Source: Clostridia bacterium (GTDB lineage Bacteria > Bacillota > Clostridia > Christensenellales > Aristaeellaceae). From it: 36,173 bases of DNA. Below, piece after piece: positions 3,664 to 28,595 of the stretch. The notes below the pieces were generated by a model. The model worked only from the letters and a program-made list of their open reading frames with translations. It was not told the DNA's origin and made no database searches. The position numbers were made by a program, and so were the translations under genes. The stretch's first letter is position 1. Each line of letters begins with the position of its first letter. The stretch spans positions 1 through 36,173 of the forward strand of contig JAGBAV010000051.1 in assembly GCA_017938795.1 (NCBI GenBank), given 5' to 3'.

Positions 3664-6098
3664 ACGGATGAATCCTCCTTTTCTGAGAGCCACGGGTATA
3701 CCTGCCTGAAGTCCATATCGGACGCATAGTAGAAGGACGGATATACCGGCTGGTTGTAGCAGTTATTCTGCCATGCCACGCCGCAGCGATACTGCGGGTC
3801 GTGCATGAACGTGGGCAGCTTGTGCGCGGTGAGATCGGTTGTGGTGTAGATGCGGATGGCGCTTGAATCACGGGTGCGCAGCAGGATCTCCTCGCGGAAG
3901 TCGCCGAAGATGTCTGCGATCAGGCAGGGGTTGCCCTTGGTGCCGTTGTTGGTGAGGGTACCCTCGGGCTCGAGCACAACGCCGCGCGTCAGGTCGCAGA
4001 TGCGCCCGGTCTTCTCGCTGCGCAGGTAGTCTGCGCTGTCCGTCACCTGTGTGGTCAGGTCGCCCAGCCAGTACACGCGCGCATTGGTCGAGGGCTCCGG
4101 CAGGTCAAGACGATTGCCGCGGCAGTCGTACATGCCCTTGCTCCATACCTGCAGACCGCGCACGCCGGGCGCGACGTCGCCGATCATGCAGCGGCCGAGG
4201 TCGCCCTCATGGTATTCGCCGAAGCGCACCTCGCCCGTCTGCGCATCGCGCAGCGCATAGCCGTAGGGCGCGTGCCGTCCCTCCTCGAAGACATTGAAGA
4301 TCTCCAGCCCGGGGATGTCAGGGTCAATGTCCGCCACATGCATGGAGTCGCCGTGCCCCAGCTTGGCCGTGCGCCCGTCGGGCAGCAGGCCTGTGGAGGA
4401 ATAGAGCAGCGTGCCGTCGTGATCGATGCAGGCCGCGCCATAGATGATCTCCATGCAGCCGTCGCCGTCGATATCCGCGCAGGACAGGCTGTGGTTGCCC
4501 TGACGCGCAAGCGTACCATAGACGGGATCCGTGCCGTCCTGCGTATCGCCCGGGGTGCAGCGGAAGGGATTGGCCATCGGCAGGAAGCCGGTATCCACCG
4601 ACCAGCGCAGGCTGTGACGGCCGTTCACAAGGTCATAGGCGGCGATCGTCGTGCGCGTATAGTACCCGCGGCAGACGATCAGAGAGGGATGCACGCCGTC
4701 CAGATACGCGACGCCGGAGAGAAAGCGATCCACGCGGTTGCAGGGCTCGATCCTGTTCCATGCGTAGTCGCCCCAGAGCAGGCCGTCGTCCACGCGCGGG
4801 AAGGGGAAGGGGATGGTTTCCAGCTCCGTGCCGTCCCCGGCGAACATGGTCAGGTATTCCGGCCCTTCGTAGATGAAGCCTTCGAACTTCGTCAGCTCGT
4901 TGCGCGGAGAACGGGAAGGGGCGTAGACGTCGATGAAGTAATCTGCCAGCCCCAGCGCGTCCTCGCGGCTGAGCGGGCGGGCAGCCATTGCCTCCACACC
5001 GAAGCAGGCCTCCGGCGTTTCCGGCCACTGGCCGCGCACGACCTCCGGGTGCTGATGCCAGTGTATGAAGACGTCCGCCATATGCTGGCGGTAATCCTCT
5101 GCGGAGCAGACGTAGTTGTCCTCGTGCGTGACGCCGGCGTCGATGTCGTCCTGCGGCAGGGTGACGTAGCTGCGGCTGAGGACGGAGCCGTCCGCACGGT
5201 AGCGGGTCATGACGGTGCCCGGCGCGGTCTTGACGGACATCTCCGCCCTGCCGTCGCCGTCAAAGTCCATCACCATGAACTGCGTGTAATGCGCGCCGGC
5301 ACGGATGTTGGGCCCCATGTCAAGCCGCCAGAGGAGCGTGCCGTCGAGCTTATAGCAGTCGATCATGCAGCGGCCCGTATAGCCCTTGATGGAGACGTCC
5401 TGGCTGTTGGTCGGATCCCATTTGACGATGTATTCGTATTCGCCGTCGCCGTCGACGTCGCCCACGGACATGTCGTTGGCGGTGTATTCAAAGGGCTGCC
5501 CGGCGGGGGTGACGCCGCCCTCCGGCTTTTTGAGCGGGATATCCAGATAGCCGCGCTCCCAGACGCGGACGGCTTCGCAGCAGGGCTGCTCTTTGCCGCC
5601 GCAGACGGGCGCGACGGTGTAGATATCCTGCTCCGTGCCGGAGGCGTCCAGATAGTTCGTGCTGTCCGTGACCAGCGCGATGCGCTCGCCGTTTTTGTAC
5701 ACAGCAAAATCGCAGGCGATCAGTCGGGTCTTCTCTGCGCCGTGCACCTCGCCGCGCAGCAGACGCCACGAGAGGAAAACGCCGCGCTCCGTTTTGACGG
5801 CGGCGAGCCCGCGGCTGATTGCCTCCAGCTGCGGCTCGGGGATGACGGCGACGGGCGCGGTCACAACATCGGACTGCGCGATCACATCCCCGCCGGCGAT
5901 GGCCTGCACATAAAGCCTGTAGGGCAGGCATGGCACGCGGGGGAAGAAGAGGGCCGTTTCCTGCGCGGGGATGGGCTTATAGTATTGCGGGGACGTCTCC
6001 CTGTCCGACCAGCGGACGATGTACCCGTCTGCACCGGGGTCGGCATCCCATGAGAGGGCGATTCCGTCCGGGCGGACCTGATCGATGCGAAGGATCAT
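3645..6098 (-). CDS. Rhamnogalacturonan lyase, polysaccharide lyase family 11, no signal peptide
   Basis: Cleaves the rhamnose-galacturonic acid backbone of pectin by beta-elimination (817 aa). Residues 1-85 look like a fibronectin III-type domain. A beta-sandwich follows to about 190. The calcium-binding propeller starts near 203 with SVGDVDGDGEYEYIVKWDP, then NIRAGAHYTQFMVMDFDGDG at 264-283 and VDRFLSGVAYLDG near 456, all characteristic of PL11. About 105 residues (298-405) are inserted between two conserved blade motifs, and with the N-terminal domain this explains a length well over the usual 600 or so. The protein starts MILRIDQ without a signal peptide, so it probably works in the cytoplasm on imported oligomers. 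ATG and the upstream TGA overlap as ATGA, with AAGGAGG before it. Confidence 0.93.
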   Translation of the reverse strand: MILRIDQVRPDGIALSWDADPGADGYIVRWSDRETSPQYYKPIPAQETALFFPRVPCLPYRLYVQAIAGGDVIAQSDVVTAPVAVIPEPQLEAISRGLAAVKTERGVFLSWRLLRGEVHGAEKTRLIACDFAVYKNGERIALVTDSTNYLDASGTEQDIYTVAPVCGGKEQPCCEAVRVWERGYLDIPLKKPEGGVTPAGQPFEYTANDMSVGDVDGDGEYEYIVKWDPTNSQDVSIKGYTGRCMIDCYKLDGTLLWRLDMGPNIRAGAHYTQFMVMDFDGDGRAEMSVKTAPGTVMTRYRADGSVLSRSYVTLPQDDIDAGVTHEDNYVCSAEDYRQHMADVFIHWHQHPEVVRGQWPETPEACFGVEAMAARPLSREDALGLADYFIDVYAPSRSPRNELTKFEGFIYEGPEYLTMFAGDGTELETIPFPFPRVDDGLLWGDYAWNRIEPCNRVDRFLSGVAYLDGVHPSLIVCRGYYTRTTIAAYDLVNGRHSLRWSVDTGFLPMANPFRCTPGDTQDGTDPVYGTLARQGNHSLSCADIDGDGCMEIIYGAACIDHDGTLLYSSTGLLPDGRTAKLGHGDSMHVADIDPDIPGLEIFNVFEEGRHAPYGYALRDAQTGEVRFGEYHEGDLGRCMIGDVAPGVRGLQVWSKGMYDCRGNRLDLPEPSTNARVYWLGDLTTQVTDSADYLRSEKTGRICDLTRGVVLEPEGTLTNNGTKGNPCLIADIFGDFREEILLRTRDSSAIRIYTTTDLTAHKLPTFMHDPQYRCGVAWQNNCYNQPVYPSFYYASDMDFRQVYPWLSEKEDSSVCSDSL

Positions 6099-7180
6099 GG
6101 CTGGGCCTCCTTGTTGAGTATGTCTCTCAGAATCGGCGTAACGGCGTCGGCCATCCGCAGGAAGCCAAGATCCGTCGGATGGCAGCCGTCGACCGTGCAC
6201 AGCTCCCGGTCGCTGCTGCCGAAGAGCTCACGCCCCTCGATCATGTAGACGTTCCGGTCGCCCTGCGCCAGCGCGCGGGCATAGGTCCCGCGGATGACAA
6301 CCGCCCTTGCCTCCGACGCCTCCGGCGCTTTGTCGGTGTTGGGCTTGGAGAGGAGAAGGATCGGCAGCTGCGGCTGCGCCTCGCGGATGATGCGGAAGAA
6401 CGGCTCATGCGTGGCGCGAAGATGCGCTTCGTCCGGCGCGTTGTGATCATAGTCCATGACGAAGGCGCTCATTTCCAGCCCGGCGATATAGCGGGCCATG
6501 GCGGCCTCGCCCTTGGCGTTGCCGGAGAAGCCGAGGTTAATGTGTGCGGCGTCGAGCCTGCGGCAGACGATATGCGTATAGCAGGAGCCGGCCTTGGAGG
6601 CGCAGCCGCCCTGCGTGATGGAGGAGCCATAGAAGACGATGGGCTTCGTGATGCGCGGCGCCCGACCGGGCAGCACCTGCGCGCCGGGCGCAAAGCCAAG
6701 CAGGAGCCGGTCAAGCCCATTATACAGCGGCAGATAGAGCACATAGCTGCGCAGGCCGGGAAGCAGCGGGGTATAGCCGCTCTGCTGCAGGCGGCAGCCG
6801 CGCCCGTCCTCCGTCTGCGGGATGAAATTGCAGACCTGCGTACAGCCGCCGTCGTGCTCTTCATAGAGCTCCATGCCGCTCTGCCCGCAGGCGGTGAAGT
6901 GCGGCATGCAGGCCGCGATGGTCAGTGTGAAGGCAAGCGAGAGCCCGGGGGAATCCGTCGTGAAGCGGATGCACCCGCCGGCCAGATGCCGGGAGAGATT
7001 GCGCACGCCGTCGCTGCATTCCGGGAGGATGCTGTCGGGCAGGCGGCTGTATACGCCCTCGCCGCAGGGGGAGAGGCCGTAGACGGAGAAAGGCGCATCC
7101 AGCGCAGAGCGATAGAGATAGTCCTGCGGCGCAGCGCTGTGCGCGCGGAAGTTGGGATCAAGCTCTTCCAGTCGTTTCAT
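6095..7180 (-). CDS. SGNH/GDSL-type carbohydrate esterase
   Basis: First gene of the rhamnogalacturonan operon (361 aa). The C-terminal half is an SGNH hydrolase: the nucleophile block reads YGSSITQGG (candidate serine S187, with GSS in place of the usual GDS), the glycine block GFSGNAKGE at 217-225, an asparagine in YDHNAP (about 247) and the catalytic Asp/His pair in TVDGCHPTDLG (D331, H334). Residues 1-175 form a beta-rich N-terminal domain common in two-domain bacterial SGNH esterases. There is no signal peptide. Removal of acetyl groups from pectin fragments before lyase attack is inferred from the neighbouring PL11 gene; the exact ester is unknown. AAGGAGTCCGC precedes the ATG. Confidence 0.85.
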   Translation of the reverse strand: MKRLEELDPNFRAHSAAPQDYLYRSALDAPFSVYGLSPCGEGVYSRLPDSILPECSDGVRNLSRHLAGGCIRFTTDSPGLSLAFTLTIAACMPHFTACGQSGMELYEEHDGGCTQVCNFIPQTEDGRGCRLQQSGYTPLLPGLRSYVLYLPLYNGLDRLLLGFAPGAQVLPGRAPRITKPIVFYGSSITQGGCASKAGSCYTHIVCRRLDAAHINLGFSGNAKGEAAMARYIAGLEMSAFVMDYDHNAPDEAHLRATHEPFFRIIREAQPQLPILLLSKPNTDKAPEASEARAVVIRGTYARALAQGDRNVYMIEGRELFGSSDRELCTVDGCHPTDLGFLRMADAVTPILRDILNKEAQP

Positions 7181-7218
7181 GCGGACTCCTTCTGTCGGTA
7201 TTCCGGTGTGCTATCTGT

Positions 7219-7248
7219 ATTATAGGAGGACGTGAAGAGGCATGTCAA
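7219..7248 (-). promoter_or_regulatory. Promoter of the rhamnogalacturonan operon
   Basis: Perfect consensus boxes on the minus strand: TTGACA (7243-7248), 18 bp, TATAAT (7219-7224). The -35 box overlaps an inverted repeat TGTCA-N9-TGACA at 7243-7261, a plausible operator for a pectin-responsive regulator that is not encoded in the window. Confidence 0.75.
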
Positions 7249-7273
7249 TACAGGAATGACAGACGGATTGGAT

Positions 7274-7302
7274 TTGACTTGACGGCGGTCTGTTGCTAGA
7301 AT
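7274..7302 (+). promoter_or_regulatory. Promoter of the RNA methyltransferase gene
   Basis: TTGACT (7274-7279), 17 bp, TAGAAT (7297-7302). The -10 box covers the first in-frame ATG at 7301, which supports the downstream ATG at 7334 as the true start. Confidence 0.7.
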
Positions 7303-7333
7303 GAAGACATCACCCAAGAAGGAGGGCGTAAGA

Positions 7334-8173
7334 ATGCCCTGTATCACAGAGATTCATGATCTGTCCATGCCTGAGCTTCAGCCGTATGCCGGCCTGACGC
7401 AGGCGCAGCTGCGCAGCCGTCAGCGCCCGGAGCAGGGGCTGCTGATTGCGGAGAGCGTCAATGTGATCCTCGCTGCGCTGGAGGCCGGGTATGAGCCGGT
7501 GTCCCTGCTGATGGAGCGGCGCAAGCTGCCGTCGCTGCCGCAGGCGCTGCTTGAGCGCTGCGCGGGGATTCCGCTGTATGTCGGCGGGAGGGAGCTGCTC
7601 GCCGGGCTGACGGGCTATGAGCTCACGCGTGGTGTCCTCTGTGCGCTGCGAAGGAGGCCGCTGCCCGGCATGCGCGCGGTATGCGAAGGGGCGCGGCGCA
7701 TCGCCGTGCTGGAGAGCATGACGGACACGACCAATATGGGCGCGGTCTTCCGCTCCGCTGCCGCGCTGGGGATGGATGCTGTGCTGCTCACGCCGGACTG
7801 CTGCGATCCGCTCTCGCGCCGCGCGGCGCGGGTGAGCATGGGCGGTGTATTCCGTGTGCCGTGGACGTATATCACGCCGGAGGACGGTGCGTGGCCGGCG
7901 GGCGGGATCGCCTGCCTGCATGAGATGGGCTTTGCTTTGGCGGCGCTGGCGCTGCGGGAGAATGCGCTGCCGGTTGATTCACCCGCGCTGAAGCGGGAGG
8001 TAAAGCTCGCCGTCGTGCTGGGGACGGAAGGCAGCGGCCTGCGGGAGGAAACCATCGCGCAGTGCGACTATGCGGTGATCATCCCGATGAGCCATGGCGT
8101 GGATTCGCTCAATGTCGCGGCTGCGGGCGCGGTGGCCTTCTGGGAACTGGGCAGGATGAAGAACCGAGAGTGA
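7334..8173 (+). CDS. SpoU/TrmH-family RNA 2'-O-methyltransferase
   Basis: SAM-dependent ribose methyltransferase of the SPOUT knot superfamily (279 aa). The three SpoU motifs are present: motif 1 around 134-140 (NMGAVFR, with the asparagine and arginine), motif 2 at 229-236 (LGTEGSGL) and motif 3 at 249-263 (IIPMSHGVDSLNVAA). The first 110 residues resemble the L30e-like RNA-binding domain of rRNA/tRNA methyltransferases. I start it at 7334, eight bases after GGAGG, because the ATG at 7301 lies inside the promoter. Whether it targets 23S rRNA or tRNA cannot be read from the sequence. It is divergent from the pectin operon and appears monocistronic. Confidence 0.9.
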   Translation: MPCITEIHDLSMPELQPYAGLTQAQLRSRQRPEQGLLIAESVNVILAALEAGYEPVSLLMERRKLPSLPQALLERCAGIPLYVGGRELLAGLTGYELTRGVLCALRRRPLPGMRAVCEGARRIAVLESMTDTTNMGAVFRSAAALGMDAVLLTPDCCDPLSRRAARVSMGGVFRVPWTYITPEDGAWPAGGIACLHEMGFALAALALRENALPVDSPALKREVKLAVVLGTEGSGLREETIAQCDYAVIIPMSHGVDSLNVAAAGAVAFWELGRMKNRE

Positions 8174-14780: not shown

Positions 14781-14826
14781 TGGTCGGAGTGGCGAGATTC
14801 GAACTCGCGGCCTCTTGAACCCCATT
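14781..14826 (-). repeat. Left attachment site: partial tRNA-Pro copy
   Basis: Exact copy of bases 28391-28436: the CCA end, acceptor 3' strand, T arm, variable loop and anticodon loop of tRNA-Pro. The 5' half is absent in normal order. Just inside, tRNA-like blocks occur rearranged: CTGCGCT-N4-CCCGTGC at 14835-14852 and CAAGCACGCTAC at 14852-14863. Confidence 0.88.
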
Positions 14827-24238: not shown

Positions 24239-24442
24239 GAATTCGCATACAGCAAGGAAGAACTGATTGCGGAGATCGGCGCAGCGGCGCTGGTCAATCA
24301 CGCAGGGCTTGAGACGGCGAACAGCTTCCGAAACAGCGCGGCATACGTCCAGAACTGGCTTAAGGTTCTGCGCGATGACAAGCGGTTCATCGTGAGCGCC
24401 GCAGGCAAGGCTGAGAAGGCCGTGAGCATGATCCTCGGATGA
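24239..24442 (+). pseudogene. C-terminal fragment of an ArdC-type antirestriction protein
   Basis: 67 codons reading EFAYSKEELIAEIGAAALVN, HAGLETANSFRNSAAYVQNWL, then KVLRDDKRFIVSAAGKAEKAV and SMILG, stop. This is the end of the zincin-like metallopeptidase domain of ArdC/DUF1738 proteins carried by plasmids and conjugative elements. The HExxH part and the ssDNA-binding N-terminal domain are missing, and there is no start codon. It shows that the element once carried transfer-associated genes. Confidence 0.72.
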
Positions 24443-24448
24443 TGCATA

Positions 24449-24479
24449 TGCCAGCCTCTTGGTGGTCAGGAGGCTGGCA
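24449..24479. terminator. Stem-loop after the ArdC fragment
   Basis: A 10-bp perfect stem (24449-24458 and 24470-24479) with an 11-nt loop. No T run follows, so termination is uncertain. Confidence 0.45.
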
Positions 24480-24518
24480 ACAAAAACAAATGGAAGCTTA
24501 TACAGTCAACATGAGGAT

Positions 24519-24585
24519 GGATCGCCGCAGAAAGCGCGGCAAAAGCGTAAAAGAAATCGGTAAACGAAACGATTTGCTGCGATCC
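24519..24585. repeat. Nested inverted repeats before the recombinase gene
   Basis: Outer arms GGATCGC (24519-24525) and GCGATCC (24579-24585), which extend to an 11-bp imperfect match, enclose inner arms AAATCG (24554-24559) and CGATTT (24570-24575). They lie 30 bp before the serine recombinase gene. They may be a recombination site or an mRNA structure. Confidence 0.4.
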
Positions 24586-24615
24586 ACCTTTTCTTTTACA
24601 TAGGAGGTCAGGACG

Positions 24616-25203
24616 ATGAAAAATTGGGGCTATGCACGTTGCTCTACAAACGAGGATAAGCAGGACATCAACAGGCAAATCCGCGAACTGAAAGCCGCAG
24701 GCGCGGACGAAGTGATTTTTGAATATGAGCATGGAGATGCCAAGGTGAAAAAGAATCTCCATATGCTCTTGGATGCGGCGACTGAGGGTGACACGATCAT
24801 CACTCTTGAGGTCAGCCGACTGAGCAGGAGCACACAGCAGCTGTGCGAGATAATAGACATCATCAGGGATAAGAAGTTGCGGCTTGTGATCGTGGGAAGC
24901 ATCACGATTGATTGCCGGAACGGTGAGATTGATCCTATGTCGGCGGCATTCATGAAGATGGCTGGCGTCTTCTCTGAGCTGGAATTGCAGATGATCCGGG
25001 CGCGGGTTCGCTCTGGCGTCAGGAATGCGCAGAGCAAGGGCGTCAAGGTAGGCCGCAAGGCTACGACGAAGGATGATATTCCCGCGATCTTCTACAAGCA
25101 TTATCCTGCTTTTGCTGCGAAGCAGATGAATGTGAGCGAGTTGGCGAGGATATGTGGGCTGAGTAGACCGACGGTGTATAAATACTTAAGGATTCTCGCG
25201 TAG
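24616..25203 (+). CDS. Serine recombinase, resolvase/invertase family
   Basis: Site-specific recombinase (195 aa, the normal small-resolvase size). The catalytic serine is S10 in YARCSTNEDKQ, followed by the conserved arginines in SRLSRS (about 68-73) and the long E helix FSELELQMIRARVRSG with its arginine pair. The C-terminal helix-turn-helix is at about 172-192 (NVSELARICGLSRPTVYKYL). AGGAGG precedes the ATG by eight bases. A strong terminator follows. It could resolve dimers or invert a segment; nested inverted repeats at 24519-24585 are a candidate target. Confidence 0.92.
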   Translation: MKNWGYARCSTNEDKQDINRQIRELKAAGADEVIFEYEHGDAKVKKNLHMLLDAATEGDTIITLEVSRLSRSTQQLCEIIDIIRDKKLRLVIVGSITIDCRNGEIDPMSAAFMKMAGVFSELELQMIRARVRSGVRNAQSKGVKVGRKATTKDDIPAIFYKHYPAFAAKQMNVSELARICGLSRPTVYKYLRILA

Positions 25204-25257: not shown

Positions 25258-25776
25258 TTAAATCTGATCAAAGAGGTTTTCCTTAGATGCGTTTGCTTTT
25301 GCATTCAATTCATCATTACGAATCATTAGTTGCGTAAAAAAGAACAGAAGGAAAACCGTCCCCCAAACCATATACACAAACGCAACAAATAGCGCGTAAT
25401 TCATAAACAGCTTGAATGCACAGCTCCACGTCTCGATGCTGAGAATAAGCATTGAGAGAAGGATTACGCTGATTGAAGCAACTGTAACATAGAATACCTT
25501 CCAGTACATCTTCTGTGCAATATCCGGATAGCACTGGGTCATCTTCTTATGAATATACTCGGTTCTCATTCCCAGTAAAACTGAGAAAATGATGCCGATC
25601 ATCGCAAGATTGCATGATCCATAAGTAATGACGTGTGGAACAAGTTCCATGCGCTTCAAGGGAAGCATTCTGGCAAGGATACACAGTGGGATGCACAGAA
25701 GCAAACATGCGCTCAACAAATGATCTGTAATAAAGTTGATTATACTGTCGACCCTATCTTTAACCCAGTTGATCAC
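25258..25776 (-). CDS. Four-helix membrane protein, second gene of a two-gene unit
   Basis: A 172-residue protein with four strong transmembrane helices at about 15-38, 45-69, 90-117 and 120-151, and a charged C-terminal tail (NDELNAKANASKENLFDQI). There is no signal peptide and no recognisable domain. It starts with GTG at 25774-25776, which overlaps the TGA of the upstream gene as GTGA; AGGAGG lies inside the upstream gene six bases before it. Such tight coupling implies a fixed ratio with the 371-residue protein. Size and topology recall KwaA of the Kiwa defence system and other small membrane effectors, but I see no sequence match. A function in membrane damage or signal relay during phage attack is inference. 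Confidence 0.78.
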   Translation of the reverse strand: MINWVKDRVDSIINFITDHLLSACLLLCIPLCILARMLPLKRMELVPHVITYGSCNLAMIGIIFSVLLGMRTEYIHKKMTQCYPDIAQKMYWKVFYVTVASISVILLSMLILSIETWSCAFKLFMNYALFVAFVYMVWGTVFLLFFFTQLMIRNDELNAKANASKENLFDQI

Positions 25777-26888
25777 TGTAGTCCTCCTAATATTGCAAAC
25801 AACCGTGCATCAAGGCGGCTATATTGCTCCGCAGTGAGATCGTATAAGTATTCTGATCCAATGGGCTGGCGCTCCTCAACTTCGATAGGAACGAGGAAAT
25901 CAACCTTCGGAGTCAAGAGATCAATCGCTTCTAAAACATTTGTTTGTGGATTCAGAATCGTGACCTCAACACGTGCATCTTTTTTATCTTCATCAGTGGT
26001 TGTGGGTGCAGCCATGAATTCACGGTACTTTCGAGCTACAGAACGTACATCACGTGCTGTTAACGTTCCGGCAGCATCTTCACGCTTAACTGTGAGGCAC
26101 ACATCAAGCGTTACGCCAGTCTGTTCGCCGATGATTCTAGCCACAGATGACAGATGAACACTATCCTCAGGAATGATGCCATCTTTGTTTACATCCGAAC
26201 AGCGAATCCGAACTTTCTTATAGCAGTCAGCAGCCAAAGCGCGCTCGGTTAGACCTTCATCAAGAATGGGCTGTAATTCACCGACGAGATAGCGATTGAC
26301 GGGCTGACGATTGATTTCGAGATACTGTTTCTGAAGGAAATTCAGATACTTTTGTACCGCAGAAACACCGACGCCATACTTATTTGACTGAATTATAACG
26401 ACGCCGTATCGCGTGTCTAAAAGTATTTCGGTAAACTCACCGATATACTCATCTTCAGCCAGCGGAATATCTTCTCGCGCCTCATCAATCTTCTTTTTTG
26501 CGGGAAGACCTGTTGCACGAAGTTTGGCAATCTGGAAGGAATAGAGATGGGGAGAGGAATCCTTATGGAAGTATGCGTTCCGATCCATCTCGATTTTCTC
26601 TCCATTAACCTTGAGAACCATCTCAGGAATACGCCCATTTTGCGCTGCTTCAATCACCTGACTTAGCTGCCATGTAGTTTGACGCCTTGCCGCAGCTTCT
26701 GCCAATTCACGGCGATGATCTCTCCATTTATCGAGAGAAAGACCATGATGTGATTTGAAGTCTTGCGGAGCAATGGCTTCAAGTTCAGCAATCCGCTGAT
26801 CGGCCTTCAGGAGTTTATCTGCATGGTTATCGGTCAGGGAAAGGACTGCTTTGTACAAACTGAATCGGACGTATTTTTTCTTCGGCAT
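25773..26888 (-). CDS. Cytoplasmic protein of unknown function, possible DUF6731-like, first gene of a two-gene unit
   Basis: 371 residues, no signal peptide or membrane helix. The start KKKYVRFSLYKAVLSL, a SFQIAKLRATGLPAKKK segment (117-133) and the core EILLDTRYGVVIIQSNKYG (154-172) with VGVSAVQKYL after it resemble, from memory, the pattern of DUF6731 proteins and more distantly KwaB/DUF4868; this assignment is weak. The C-terminal third is alpha/beta without known motifs. The ATG follows AAGGAGG. A promoter with a 33-bp dyad lies directly upstream, so the unit is probably autoregulated or induced. It sits between a serine recombinase and the integrase, a usual place for defence cargo. It may be the sensor or nucleic-acid-binding partner of the membrane protein. 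Confidence 0.78.
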   Translation of the reverse strand: MPKKKYVRFSLYKAVLSLTDNHADKLLKADQRIAELEAIAPQDFKSHHGLSLDKWRDHRRELAEAAARRQTTWQLSQVIEAAQNGRIPEMVLKVNGEKIEMDRNAYFHKDSSPHLYSFQIAKLRATGLPAKKKIDEAREDIPLAEDEYIGEFTEILLDTRYGVVIIQSNKYGVGVSAVQKYLNFLQKQYLEINRQPVNRYLVGELQPILDEGLTERALAADCYKKVRIRCSDVNKDGIIPEDSVHLSSVARIIGEQTGVTLDVCLTVKREDAAGTLTARDVRSVARKYREFMAAPTTTDEDKKDARVEVTILNPQTNVLEAIDLLTPKVDFLVPIEVEERQPIGSEYLYDLTAEQYSRLDARLFAILGGLQ

Positions 26889-26907
26889 AGATATCCTCCT
26901 TAGTTTA

Positions 26908-26945
26908 TTGTGTATTATGATAGCACATAATCATACACAAAACAA
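26908..26945 (-). promoter_or_regulatory. Palindromic promoter of the two-gene unit
   Basis: Minus strand: TTGTTT (26940-26945), 17 bp, TATCAT (26917-26922). A dyad with 8-bp perfect arms TTGTGTAT/ATACACAA spans 26908-26940, with a second ATTATG/CATAAT dyad nested inside. It covers the spacer and the -10 box, so a bound protein would block transcription. Confidence 0.68.
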
Positions 26946-27001
26946 GCTGCGTAAAAACGCGCGGAATATATCATGCTGATAAAAGACTTGCCAAGTTTTG
27001 T

Positions 27002-28267
27002 TTACAGATCAAACGCCTCCGCATACTTCTGCGTTGCAACCTTCATCTGCCGCAGATCCGCCTTGACATAGAAGTTCAGCGTCGTGGACGCATCCGCATG
27101 GCCCAGTATTTCCTGCACGCTCTTGATGTCTGCGCCGTTTTCAAGGAGCAGCGTCGCGCATGTGTGCCGCAGATCGTGGGGCGAAATGCCCTGCAAGCCG
27201 ATTCGCCTCATGAAGTGCGTGATTTTGCGCGTCGCTGTGTTCGGATCGCGGGGTTGATAGGGACTCTCAAGCCCTTCAAAGAGGTACATGTTCTTGATGA
27301 TCTGGTTGGGATGGCGCTGGATCGCAGAGCGTCTGAGCAAAAGCAGTTCGTGTTTGACGCCTTCCATGATCGGAATGGTGCGGATGCTGCACGGCGTCTT
27401 TGGTTCCGCGACAAGGATACCGCTTTGCTTGGTGTACGTCACGTTGCGGGAGATGTGGAGCGTGTTTTCGTCGAAGTTGAAGTCCTGCCACTGCAAGCCA
27501 AGGCATTCTCCGCGCCGGATTCCCGTCGTCGCCATGAGCAGCATCATGCATCGGTATTCGGGCTTGCATTCGCGGATCGCGCTGAAGAAGATTCGCGCCT
27601 GATCCTGCGTGAGCGCATCCACTGGACGCTTGACCGTTCGCGGCGCGTCCACCTTCTTGATCGGATTCTTTTCGATGAACTCCTGCTTCTCCGCATAGTT
27701 GAAGATGATCCTCAGAATGTCGTAATGATGCTTGATGCTCTTCTCAGAAAGCGTCCTTCCGTCAGGCGCGTGGTACTCGTCACGGAGATATTGCAGGTAT
27801 CTCATGATGTCGATGGACGTTATGTCCCTGAGTCTTTTGTCTCCAAGCTGGGGCAGAGCCACGCGCATCATGAATCCGTACATGGCGACGGTAGATGGCT
27901 TCAAACCGCCTGCAATGACCTTCAGAGGTAACCAAACCTGTTCGGCAAAGTAGCGGAAGGTTTCTTCTTCAGGTACGATCTCAGGCTCTTCAGGCGCTTC
28001 ACAGGGAAGAGGAGTAGGCGTCGCGAACACGCCGTGCTCTGGCTGATTTCCTTTGATCTCTTGCTCCCAACGATAGGATTCAGCCTCTGCCAATTTGCGG
28101 GCTTTGGCATAACTCAGGCCGTTTGGCGGTTTCCATGTCGTCGTTTTGTACTTTTGTGTACCCGAATCGTCCCTTCCAATGCACAGCTGAAATTTGAACG
28201 CGACAACCTTTCCATCCTTCTTTTCGAAGGTATGGTTGACATTTTCACAGCTCGTTTTTGTGTGCAT
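27002..28267 (-). CDS. int: Tyrosine recombinase (integrase) of the element
   Basis: Site-specific integrase (421 aa). Residues 1-70 form an N-terminal arm-binding domain, 100-200 the SAM-like core-binding domain, and the catalytic domain follows with all active residues: R251 (TGIRRGE), H364 and R367 (HDLRHTC), H390 (LGHADAS) and the nucleophile Y400 (LNFYVK). The N-terminal KDGKVVAFKFQLCIGRD and KYKTTTW pattern is of the AP2-like domain found in Tn916-type and related integrases, which bind direct repeats at the ends. The start has a poor ribosome binding site. A -10-like TACACT at 28299-28304 lies inside an arm repeat, so the protein may repress its own gene. The gene lies 124 bp from the tRNA it uses as target. 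Confidence 0.95.
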   Translation of the reverse strand: MHTKTSCENVNHTFEKKDGKVVAFKFQLCIGRDDSGTQKYKTTTWKPPNGLSYAKARKLAEAESYRWEQEIKGNQPEHGVFATPTPLPCEAPEEPEIVPEEETFRYFAEQVWLPLKVIAGGLKPSTVAMYGFMMRVALPQLGDKRLRDITSIDIMRYLQYLRDEYHAPDGRTLSEKSIKHHYDILRIIFNYAEKQEFIEKNPIKKVDAPRTVKRPVDALTQDQARIFFSAIRECKPEYRCMMLLMATTGIRRGECLGLQWQDFNFDENTLHISRNVTYTKQSGILVAEPKTPCSIRTIPIMEGVKHELLLLRRSAIQRHPNQIIKNMYLFEGLESPYQPRDPNTATRKITHFMRRIGLQGISPHDLRHTCATLLLENGADIKSVQEILGHADASTTLNFYVKADLRQMKVATQKYAEAFDL

Positions 28268-28390: not shown

Positions 28391-28436
28391 TGGTCGGAGT
28401 GGCGAGATTCGAACTCGCGGCCTCTTGAACCCCATT
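28391..28436 (-). repeat. Right attachment site within tRNA-Pro
   Basis: Exact partner of the repeat at 14781-14826. It ends in the anticodon-loop region, the usual crossover position for tRNA-targeting tyrosine recombinases. Confidence 0.88.
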
Positions 28437-28467
28437 CAAGCACGCTACCAAACTGCGCTACACCCCG
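28391..28467 (-). tRNA. tRNA-Pro(GGG)
   Basis: 77 nt including an encoded CCA. The 7-bp acceptor stem CGGGGTG/CACTCCG has one G-T pair. D arm GTAGCGCAGTTTGGTAGCG, anticodon stem CTTGA/TCAAG around loop ATGGGGT (anticodon GGG at 34-36), and T arm GCGAGTTCGAATCTCGC fold normally. Its 3' 46 bases come from the integrated element; the gene was restored by integration. Confidence 0.95.
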
Positions 28468-28499: not shown

Positions 28500-28527
28500 A
28501 TTATACCACAGGGAAGGGATTTGTCAA
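28500..28527 (-). promoter_or_regulatory. Promoter of tRNA-Pro
   Basis: Perfect TTGACA (28522-28527), 16 bp, TATAAT (28500-28505), about 33 bp before the tRNA. Confidence 0.85.
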
Positions 28528-28595
28528 GGGCTTTTTTGCGGCGATTGCAATGCGTGATTGACAACCTCCAGCGAGTTTCCTATAATATAGACGTG

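Follow-up and report, generated by a model that had tools for sequence, protein, structure and literature searches.

A two-gene unit lying between a recombinase and an integrase on DNA from a Clostridia bacterium is probably a phage-exclusion (abortive-infection) module of a divergent RexAB type, which forms the exchangeable cargo of a mobile element integrated at a tRNA-Pro gene. The window, by which is meant the whole 36,173-nucleotide stretch analysed (contig JAGBAV010000051.1), encodes a soluble protein, A, followed by a small membrane protein, B. The alignments of the two families, the pairing of the genes and their mobile context, the transmembrane content of B, and the profile homology of the A family to RexA were all computed.

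The gene pair

The features of the pair are as follows.

25773-26888, minus strand: gene A, DUF6731, predicted RexA-like sensor; ATG start, 371 aa; Pfam PF20505, E 4.4e-29
25258-25776, minus strand: gene B, predicted RexB-like membrane effector; GTG start, 172 aa; four predicted transmembrane helices
25773-25776, minus strand: overlap of A and B, 4 nt, GTGA, read from the sequence; AGGAGG Shine-Dalgarno-like sequence before the B start
26965-26994, minus strand: putative promoter-like site 5' of A, from a sigma-70-like scan

The gene coordinates confirm the two-gene unit that the initial annotation had described, with its GTGA overlap and products of 371 and 172 residues. Shine-Dalgarno-like sequences are present ahead of the start of A (AAGGAGGATATCTATG) and, within the 3' end of A, ahead of that of B (TTAGGAGGACTACAGTG), and translational coupling of the two genes through the overlap is likely. 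The suggestion that the soluble protein belongs to DUF6731 is correct, since A matches the Pfam profile with 102.4 bits, where the curated cut-off is 27 bits, residues 63-356 lying on positions 20-288 of the 295 in the profile. A also matches PHROG 10865, the function of which is given as unknown in PHROGs. Residues 143-150 carry the motif L-x-[DE]-D-E-Y-[IL]-G of the DUF6731 family (family alignment A6), while residues ~25-70 form an N-terminal insertion that is missing from nearly all the other DUF6731 proteins in this alignment, a shorter version being seen in the A protein of one other locus (L049).

The second gene had been taken to encode a four-helix membrane protein and, consistent with this, four hydrophobic segments are found in B using a simple Kyte-Doolittle threshold. 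No family was found for B in Pfam or NCBIfam. Searches of PADLOC, NCBIfam and the PDB gave no family for either window protein, and against PHROGs both gave nothing beyond weak matches and families without a known function. A sigma-70-like site, TTGGCA-18-TATATT (26994-26965, 10/12 of the consensus), lies upstream of A, and it is plausible that one promoter is common to both genes as had been proposed, but the number of such sites in the scanned region (9, versus 6.3 ± 2.7 in shuffles) is not clearly above chance.

A cargo slot beside tRNA-Pro

The pair occupies a slot with the following borders and neighbouring features.

24616-25203, plus strand: serine recombinase of the resolvase/invertase family, bordering the slot on the left; Pfam Resolvase, E 4.3e-26
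27002-28267, minus strand: tyrosine integrase, right border of the slot; Pfam Phage_integrase, E 3.8e-28
28391-28467, minus strand: tRNA-Pro(GGG), probable attachment site; ARAGORN
28391-28436, no strand: 46-bp att-like direct repeat, right copy (3' half of the tRNA-Pro gene); exact repeat
14781-14826, no strand: 46-bp att-like direct repeat, left copy; exact repeat
24245-24442, plus strand: gene remnant beside the recombinase, longer (272 aa) in the related locus L120; blastn

These borders agree with the cargo position, between a recombinase and the integrase, in which the pair had originally been placed. At the same orf198/RmuC locus of a congeneric genome (G269, locus L120) are found the tRNA-Pro, the integrase (94% identical) and the recombinase (97% identical), and positions 24245-25190 of the window align with 8577-7632 of L120 at 91% identity by blastn. 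The 2.7 kb between the integrase and the recombinase of L120 contain neither A nor B. Three other proteins are encoded there (4997-7569): one of 231 aa, one of 384 aa that is HTH-plus-peptidase-like when read by eye, and one of 228 aa, the C-terminal half of which matches CAP12 chains in the PDB (E 1.7e-6) and, weakly, PycTIR (0.006). The finding of different cargo in G269 between this integrase and recombinase, again at tRNA-Pro, shows that the slot exchanges its cargo. The alternative cargo resembles a defence system (CAP12-like, TIR) in its sequence matches and is possibly an undescribed defence operon. With this pair in it in one species and CAP12-like cargo in a relative, the slot at tRNA-Pro is a place in which to seek further defence systems. 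Among the corresponding regions of eight relatives the integrase and recombinase were seen in only one, that of L120, several of the others ending soon at contig ends. The 272-aa counterpart in L120 of the gene remnant looks by eye to be an ArdC-like protein.

A 23-base stretch of the 46-bp repeat occurs at exactly two places in the assembly, which is 79% complete, and these are the two copies. The repeats bracket 13.6 kb that include genes for metK, DegV, an AI-2E transporter and a patatin, which is unusual for a small element; because these genes are ordinary-looking, the left repeat could be the scar of another event. Within this interval, the metK-like ORF at 15020-16204 matches its N-terminal Pfam domain only at positions 65-99 of 99, and it looks as though either its start has been altered or the assembly is faulty. 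Beside the tRNA-Pro, at 28500-28586, are two divergent promoters that match the sigma-70 consensus perfectly (12/12).

Conservation of the pair

A and B form a conserved module, the two genes being paired far beyond chance. The A proteins fall into 32 clusters at 90% identity, but two of these come from a single interrupted gene, so that there are 31 distinct loci. They were drawn from genome searches, from phage and plasmid records, from a pattern scan of genome contigs (6 relatives among 510 pattern stretches) and from viral contigs scanned for a motif (32 stretches, 19 of them encoding DUF6731 by profile). L027, where the sequence stops 226 bp beyond A, was left out of the count; in all of the 30 that could be checked the next gene, on the same strand, belongs to the B family (broken in L025). 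A search for the pair across genomes had been set beforehand as a check, with rare co-occurrence to be taken as refutation; the pairing at every testable locus, with which a reciprocal search of genomes agrees, is the opposite of this.

No interruption of the A frame is visible in 26 of the 30 loci, although the protein is short, at 226 aa, in L026. In 25 of these 26 the gap between A and B is -17 to +29 nt; the -95 nt of L040 is probably a start-codon artefact of the ORF caller. B is present in all four of the loci in which A is interrupted. In L016 A is split by an inserted gene that is transposase-like by eye, and in L017, L025 and L057 its frame breaks; B is nevertheless a full-length ORF in L016, L017 and L057, and is broken too in L025. 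Most uninterrupted A proteins are of 283-345 aa, that of the window being longer, and B ranges from 147 to 206 aa. With the simple threshold, four hydrophobic segments are seen in the B of 17 loci, three in 11 and two in 1, the remaining one being broken. The profile of B was built from 14 of the loci, which match it by construction; a further 15 viral clusters from outside the profile all match at E 2.5e-10 or better.

DUF6731 is rare in the genome collections searched. Among 300 genomes of the window's family it was found only in the window's own genome, among 391 of its class in 3, the own genome included, and among 398 genomes of one phylum in 5, the centre genome included. Searching 396 genomes of the same phylum with the B profile (alignment A7), a set that may not be identical to the 398 used for A, gave six: all five of the A genomes and G863. 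The hit in G863 (L078), containing 4 stops and lacking tblastn support, was dismissed as spurious. The distances among A and among B proteins correlate (r 0.80, 0/2000 permutations, 21 loci), as is expected of linked genes. Used singly, B of the window matches the partner of the DUF6731 gene of a Listeria phage (BLASTP E 4e-5, in a small set and at a nominal database size). Neither window protein as a single query had a match in the viral contigs, nor window A in the plasmids, and one other B used as a query had the Niallia plasmid as its single match in the plasmids and none in the phages. In the control genome, that of the archaeon Methanocaldococcus jannaschii, a match to the DUF6731 profile was obtained in each search, below the curated cut-off.

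Phage, viral-contig or plasmid collections supplied 20 of the 31 loci, a proportion that partly reflects where the searches were made. The pair is immediately 5' of the terminase small subunit in the phages Javan1 and AP45, and directly before a type I restriction-modification operon on the Niallia plasmid (L014). A cytosine-methylase-like gene lies upstream of it in L020, and in L015, L018 and L019 it adjoins amidase- and holin-like (lysis-gene-like) ORFs, the names of phage genes at some loci (amidase, holin, methylase) having been read by eye from the ORFs. Further carriers are Enterococcus avium, Streptococcus acidominimus and Diplocloster agilis, while Ornithinibacillus carries the pair in broken form. 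Chitinophaga sedimenti is the single carrier from the Bacteroidota, the other named hosts being Bacillota. A PADLOC scan of the neighbours (81 ORFs from 10 loci, with no background control) gave matches to 213 families at E up to 1e-5; among the 25 of the 213 listed, components of type I and II restriction-modification systems turn up, in single members, alongside many names that are generic matches.

Comparison with RexA and RexB

The soluble protein can be linked to RexA through its family. In a profile-profile comparison, 27 DUF6731 members aligned with RexA with a probability of 89.1% (E 2.3e-6 for one pairwise comparison) over 262 columns, the alignment being colinear and nearly end to end, with 10-307 of the former on 3-277 of the latter. 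With 23 members the probability was 64.6% against three RexA proteins (E 6.3e-5, one pairwise comparison) and 86.1% against nine, falling to 69.6% when query and template were swapped. Shuffling the columns of RexA 200 times gave at most 1.9%, none of the 200 reaching the real score. Lambda RexA as a single sequence scored 41.3% against the 23-member profile, versus at most 5.5% for 81 unrelated single proteins and 0.1% for KwaB. The LADDESLG of lambda RexA is aligned with the family motif, LxDDEYIG. The relation is seen only at the level of the family profile, A of the window alone giving 0.2% against RexA. With HMMER, lambda RexA matched the A6 profile weakly (7.6 bits; E 0.0014 in a set of 11), a search of the PDB with this profile missed the RexA crystal chain, and none of the A6 members matched a RexA or DUF4747 model among family models at E up to 1; DUF4747 is the family to which lambda RexA and Sbash gp30 are assigned (excerpts of PMC6426596). 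From these profile comparisons, the DUF6731 family would appear, at the family-profile level, to be a distant homologue of RexA.

For the membrane protein the similarity is no more than suggestive of homology to RexB. The profile-profile comparison gave a probability of 6.1% (E 0.006 for one pairwise comparison) over 48 columns, which is not significant, with the alignment falling in the corresponding helix-2 region of the two proteins. In controls, 18 real transmembrane proteins gave at most 2.8%, and 200 column shuffles, which destroy transmembrane patterns, at most 4.3%. RexB of P. putida has no HHpred homologue either (excerpts of PMC12894663).

Other models were also matched by members of the B family. 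The PADLOC model PDC-M18B was matched at E up to 1 by 7 of 23 members (best 5.5e-6), and over most of its length by four of the ten members listed singly; PDC-M53B was matched by 5 of 23 (best 7.2e-4), and PHROG 17119, for which no function is given, by 15 of 23. B of the window matched no PADLOC model, PDC-M18B and PDC-M53B included, nor PHROG 17119, and no A member matched the A component of PDC-M18 or PDC-M53. Identification of the pair as PDC-M18 was rejected, the A members being without a match to PDC-M18A and the window proteins matching neither component. A search for PDC-M18B (PDLC04500) in 249 genomes gave no match, but the controls were silent as well. Weak matches in the PDB to voltage-gated sodium channels (best E 0.002) are confined to the last third of the B profile and were put down to generic helix similarity.

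In its organisation the pair is similar to RexA/RexB of lambda, and to Sbash gp30/31, CarolAnn and P. putida RexAB. A soluble protein comes first and a small four-helix membrane protein second, so that lambda rexA (279 aa) then rexB (144 aa, four transmembrane helices) are in the same order as A then B; the genes are on the same strand with few or overlapping nucleotides between them, and both are carried by phages or mobile elements, as in the 20 of 31 loci above and the integrase-recombinase slot of the window. They differ in that A belongs to DUF6731 and is longer than RexA, that B has 147 residues or more where RexB has 144 and is not provably its homologue, and that the named hosts are Bacillota and one member of the Bacteroidota. 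The pair is found at terminase, lysis-gene-like, plasmid and island positions. In the window no CI-like repressor is adjacent, the neighbours being the recombinase and the integrase; such a neighbour is no defining feature, being present in lambda but not in Sbash, Butters or Rubeelu (excerpts of PMC11077077).

Proposed mechanism

In lambda, RexA binds DNA non-specifically as a dimer, and its fold is RdgC-like. The current view is that it detects a complex made by the phage and then opens the four-helix channel RexB, with depolarisation and loss of ATP as the result (excerpts of PMC12894663, PMC6426596 and PMC11077077). In P. putida over-expression of RexA triggers RexB-dependent growth arrest and membrane damage, and RexAB is presented as the first abortive-infection system to be tied to anti-phage defence, its activation still unknown after ~70 years (excerpts of PMC12894663).

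In the mechanism proposed here the steps in which A binds DNA, dimerises and activates B, as well as the pore and exclusion, are all carried over from the literature on RexAB. A would be a soluble protein that probably dimerises and binds DNA non-specifically, and it may recognise an intermediate or a protein-DNA complex made by the infecting phage. Triggered in this way A would activate B, a predicted small four-helix protein of the inner membrane, which may oligomerise to form a pore or channel. The infected cell, depolarised or leaking, would then stop growing, and the spread of the phage would be prevented. The role in defence for which the pair was first put forward is one that we infer rather than observe, and that we count as probable.

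If DUF6731 and its four-helix partner are indeed RexAB-like, a function would be given to a Pfam family of unknown function, Rex-type systems would be extended to the Bacillota and Bacteroidota, and ~30 diverged natural pairs would be available for the study of trigger specificity; the carrier of the pair might then be protected against other phages through damage to the membrane of the infected cell. More tentatively, and as an idea that we consider rather doubtful, DUF6731/B could be one branch of a large and mostly unrecognised Rex superfamily, including PDC-M18 and PDC-M53, of two-gene membrane-effector defences found in Bacillota and Bacteroidota on phages and mobile islands. A single type of four-helix effector would there be combined with several families of sensor, which might differ in the phage signal that they read. 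No mention of DUF6731 was found in a search of 5.39 million papers, the coverage of which leaves out bioRxiv and most subscription journals, nor of the candidates PDC-M18 and PDC-M53 in the papers searched. Among titles on Rex-type exclusion in Firmicutes/Listeria, considered as titles only, none points to the DUF6731/B pair.

Alternative explanations

The pair might instead be regulatory, serving a prophage or other element, with A modulating the lysogeny/lysis or integration switch by binding DNA, B tuning it, and exclusion only a side effect. RexA of lambda does modulate the switch between CI and Cro, and whether exclusion is a by-product is a question raised in PMC11077077 (excerpts); the positions just 5' of terminase in two phages and beside lysis-gene-like ORFs (by eye) at three loci would fit such a role. 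The plasmid copy directly before the type I restriction-modification operon, however, and the window copy in a slot taken up in a relative by a CAP12-like gene set argue against it, and we consider it unlikely.

An addiction pair resembling a toxin-antitoxin system, in which B is a holin-like membrane toxin neutralised by A so that the element is stabilised, would also account for two overlapping genes on mobile elements, one of them for a small membrane protein, and B of the window has a very weak match to a holin profile (phrog_1350, E 0.095). An antitoxin of the size of A would be large, however, and the A family is RexA-like; over-expressed RexA in P. putida triggers RexB and does not neutralise it (excerpts of PMC12894663). 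Moreover, the full-length B of L016, L017 and L057 beside an interrupted A is unexpected if A is the antidote. This explanation seems to us distinctly improbable.

Kiwa (KwaA/KwaB), the mechanism of which is treated in PMC12904381 and PMC11514479 (excerpts of both), was the comparison offered in the initial annotation, which noted that the gene order was reversed. Kiwa likewise consists of two genes of similar sizes, for one soluble protein and one with four transmembrane helices, is found on mobile elements and exists with kwaB first (L069, L070). In contrast, no sequence or profile homology of A to KwaB or of B to KwaA was detectable (hhalign profile-profile probabilities of 0.1% and 0.2%), and the A and B profiles miss the solved KwaB and KwaA chains, whereas in a positive control genuine KwaB and KwaA find the solved Kiwa chains at ~3e-13. 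At E up to 1, none of the 23 A members matched PF16162 (DUF4868, KwaB). That the pair is a defence complex of the Kiwa kind, anchored in the membrane and binding DNA but with the gene order reversed, is thus very hard to credit, and lambda RexAB appears, from sequence and with gene order included, to be the better comparison. In the two kwaB-first loci, at L069 1114-2611 and L070 1126-2627, a KwaB-like gene is followed by a KwaA-like gene, opposite to the usual order of Kiwa, and the pair in L069 is on a plasmid, downstream of a gene for an ArpU-family phage regulator.
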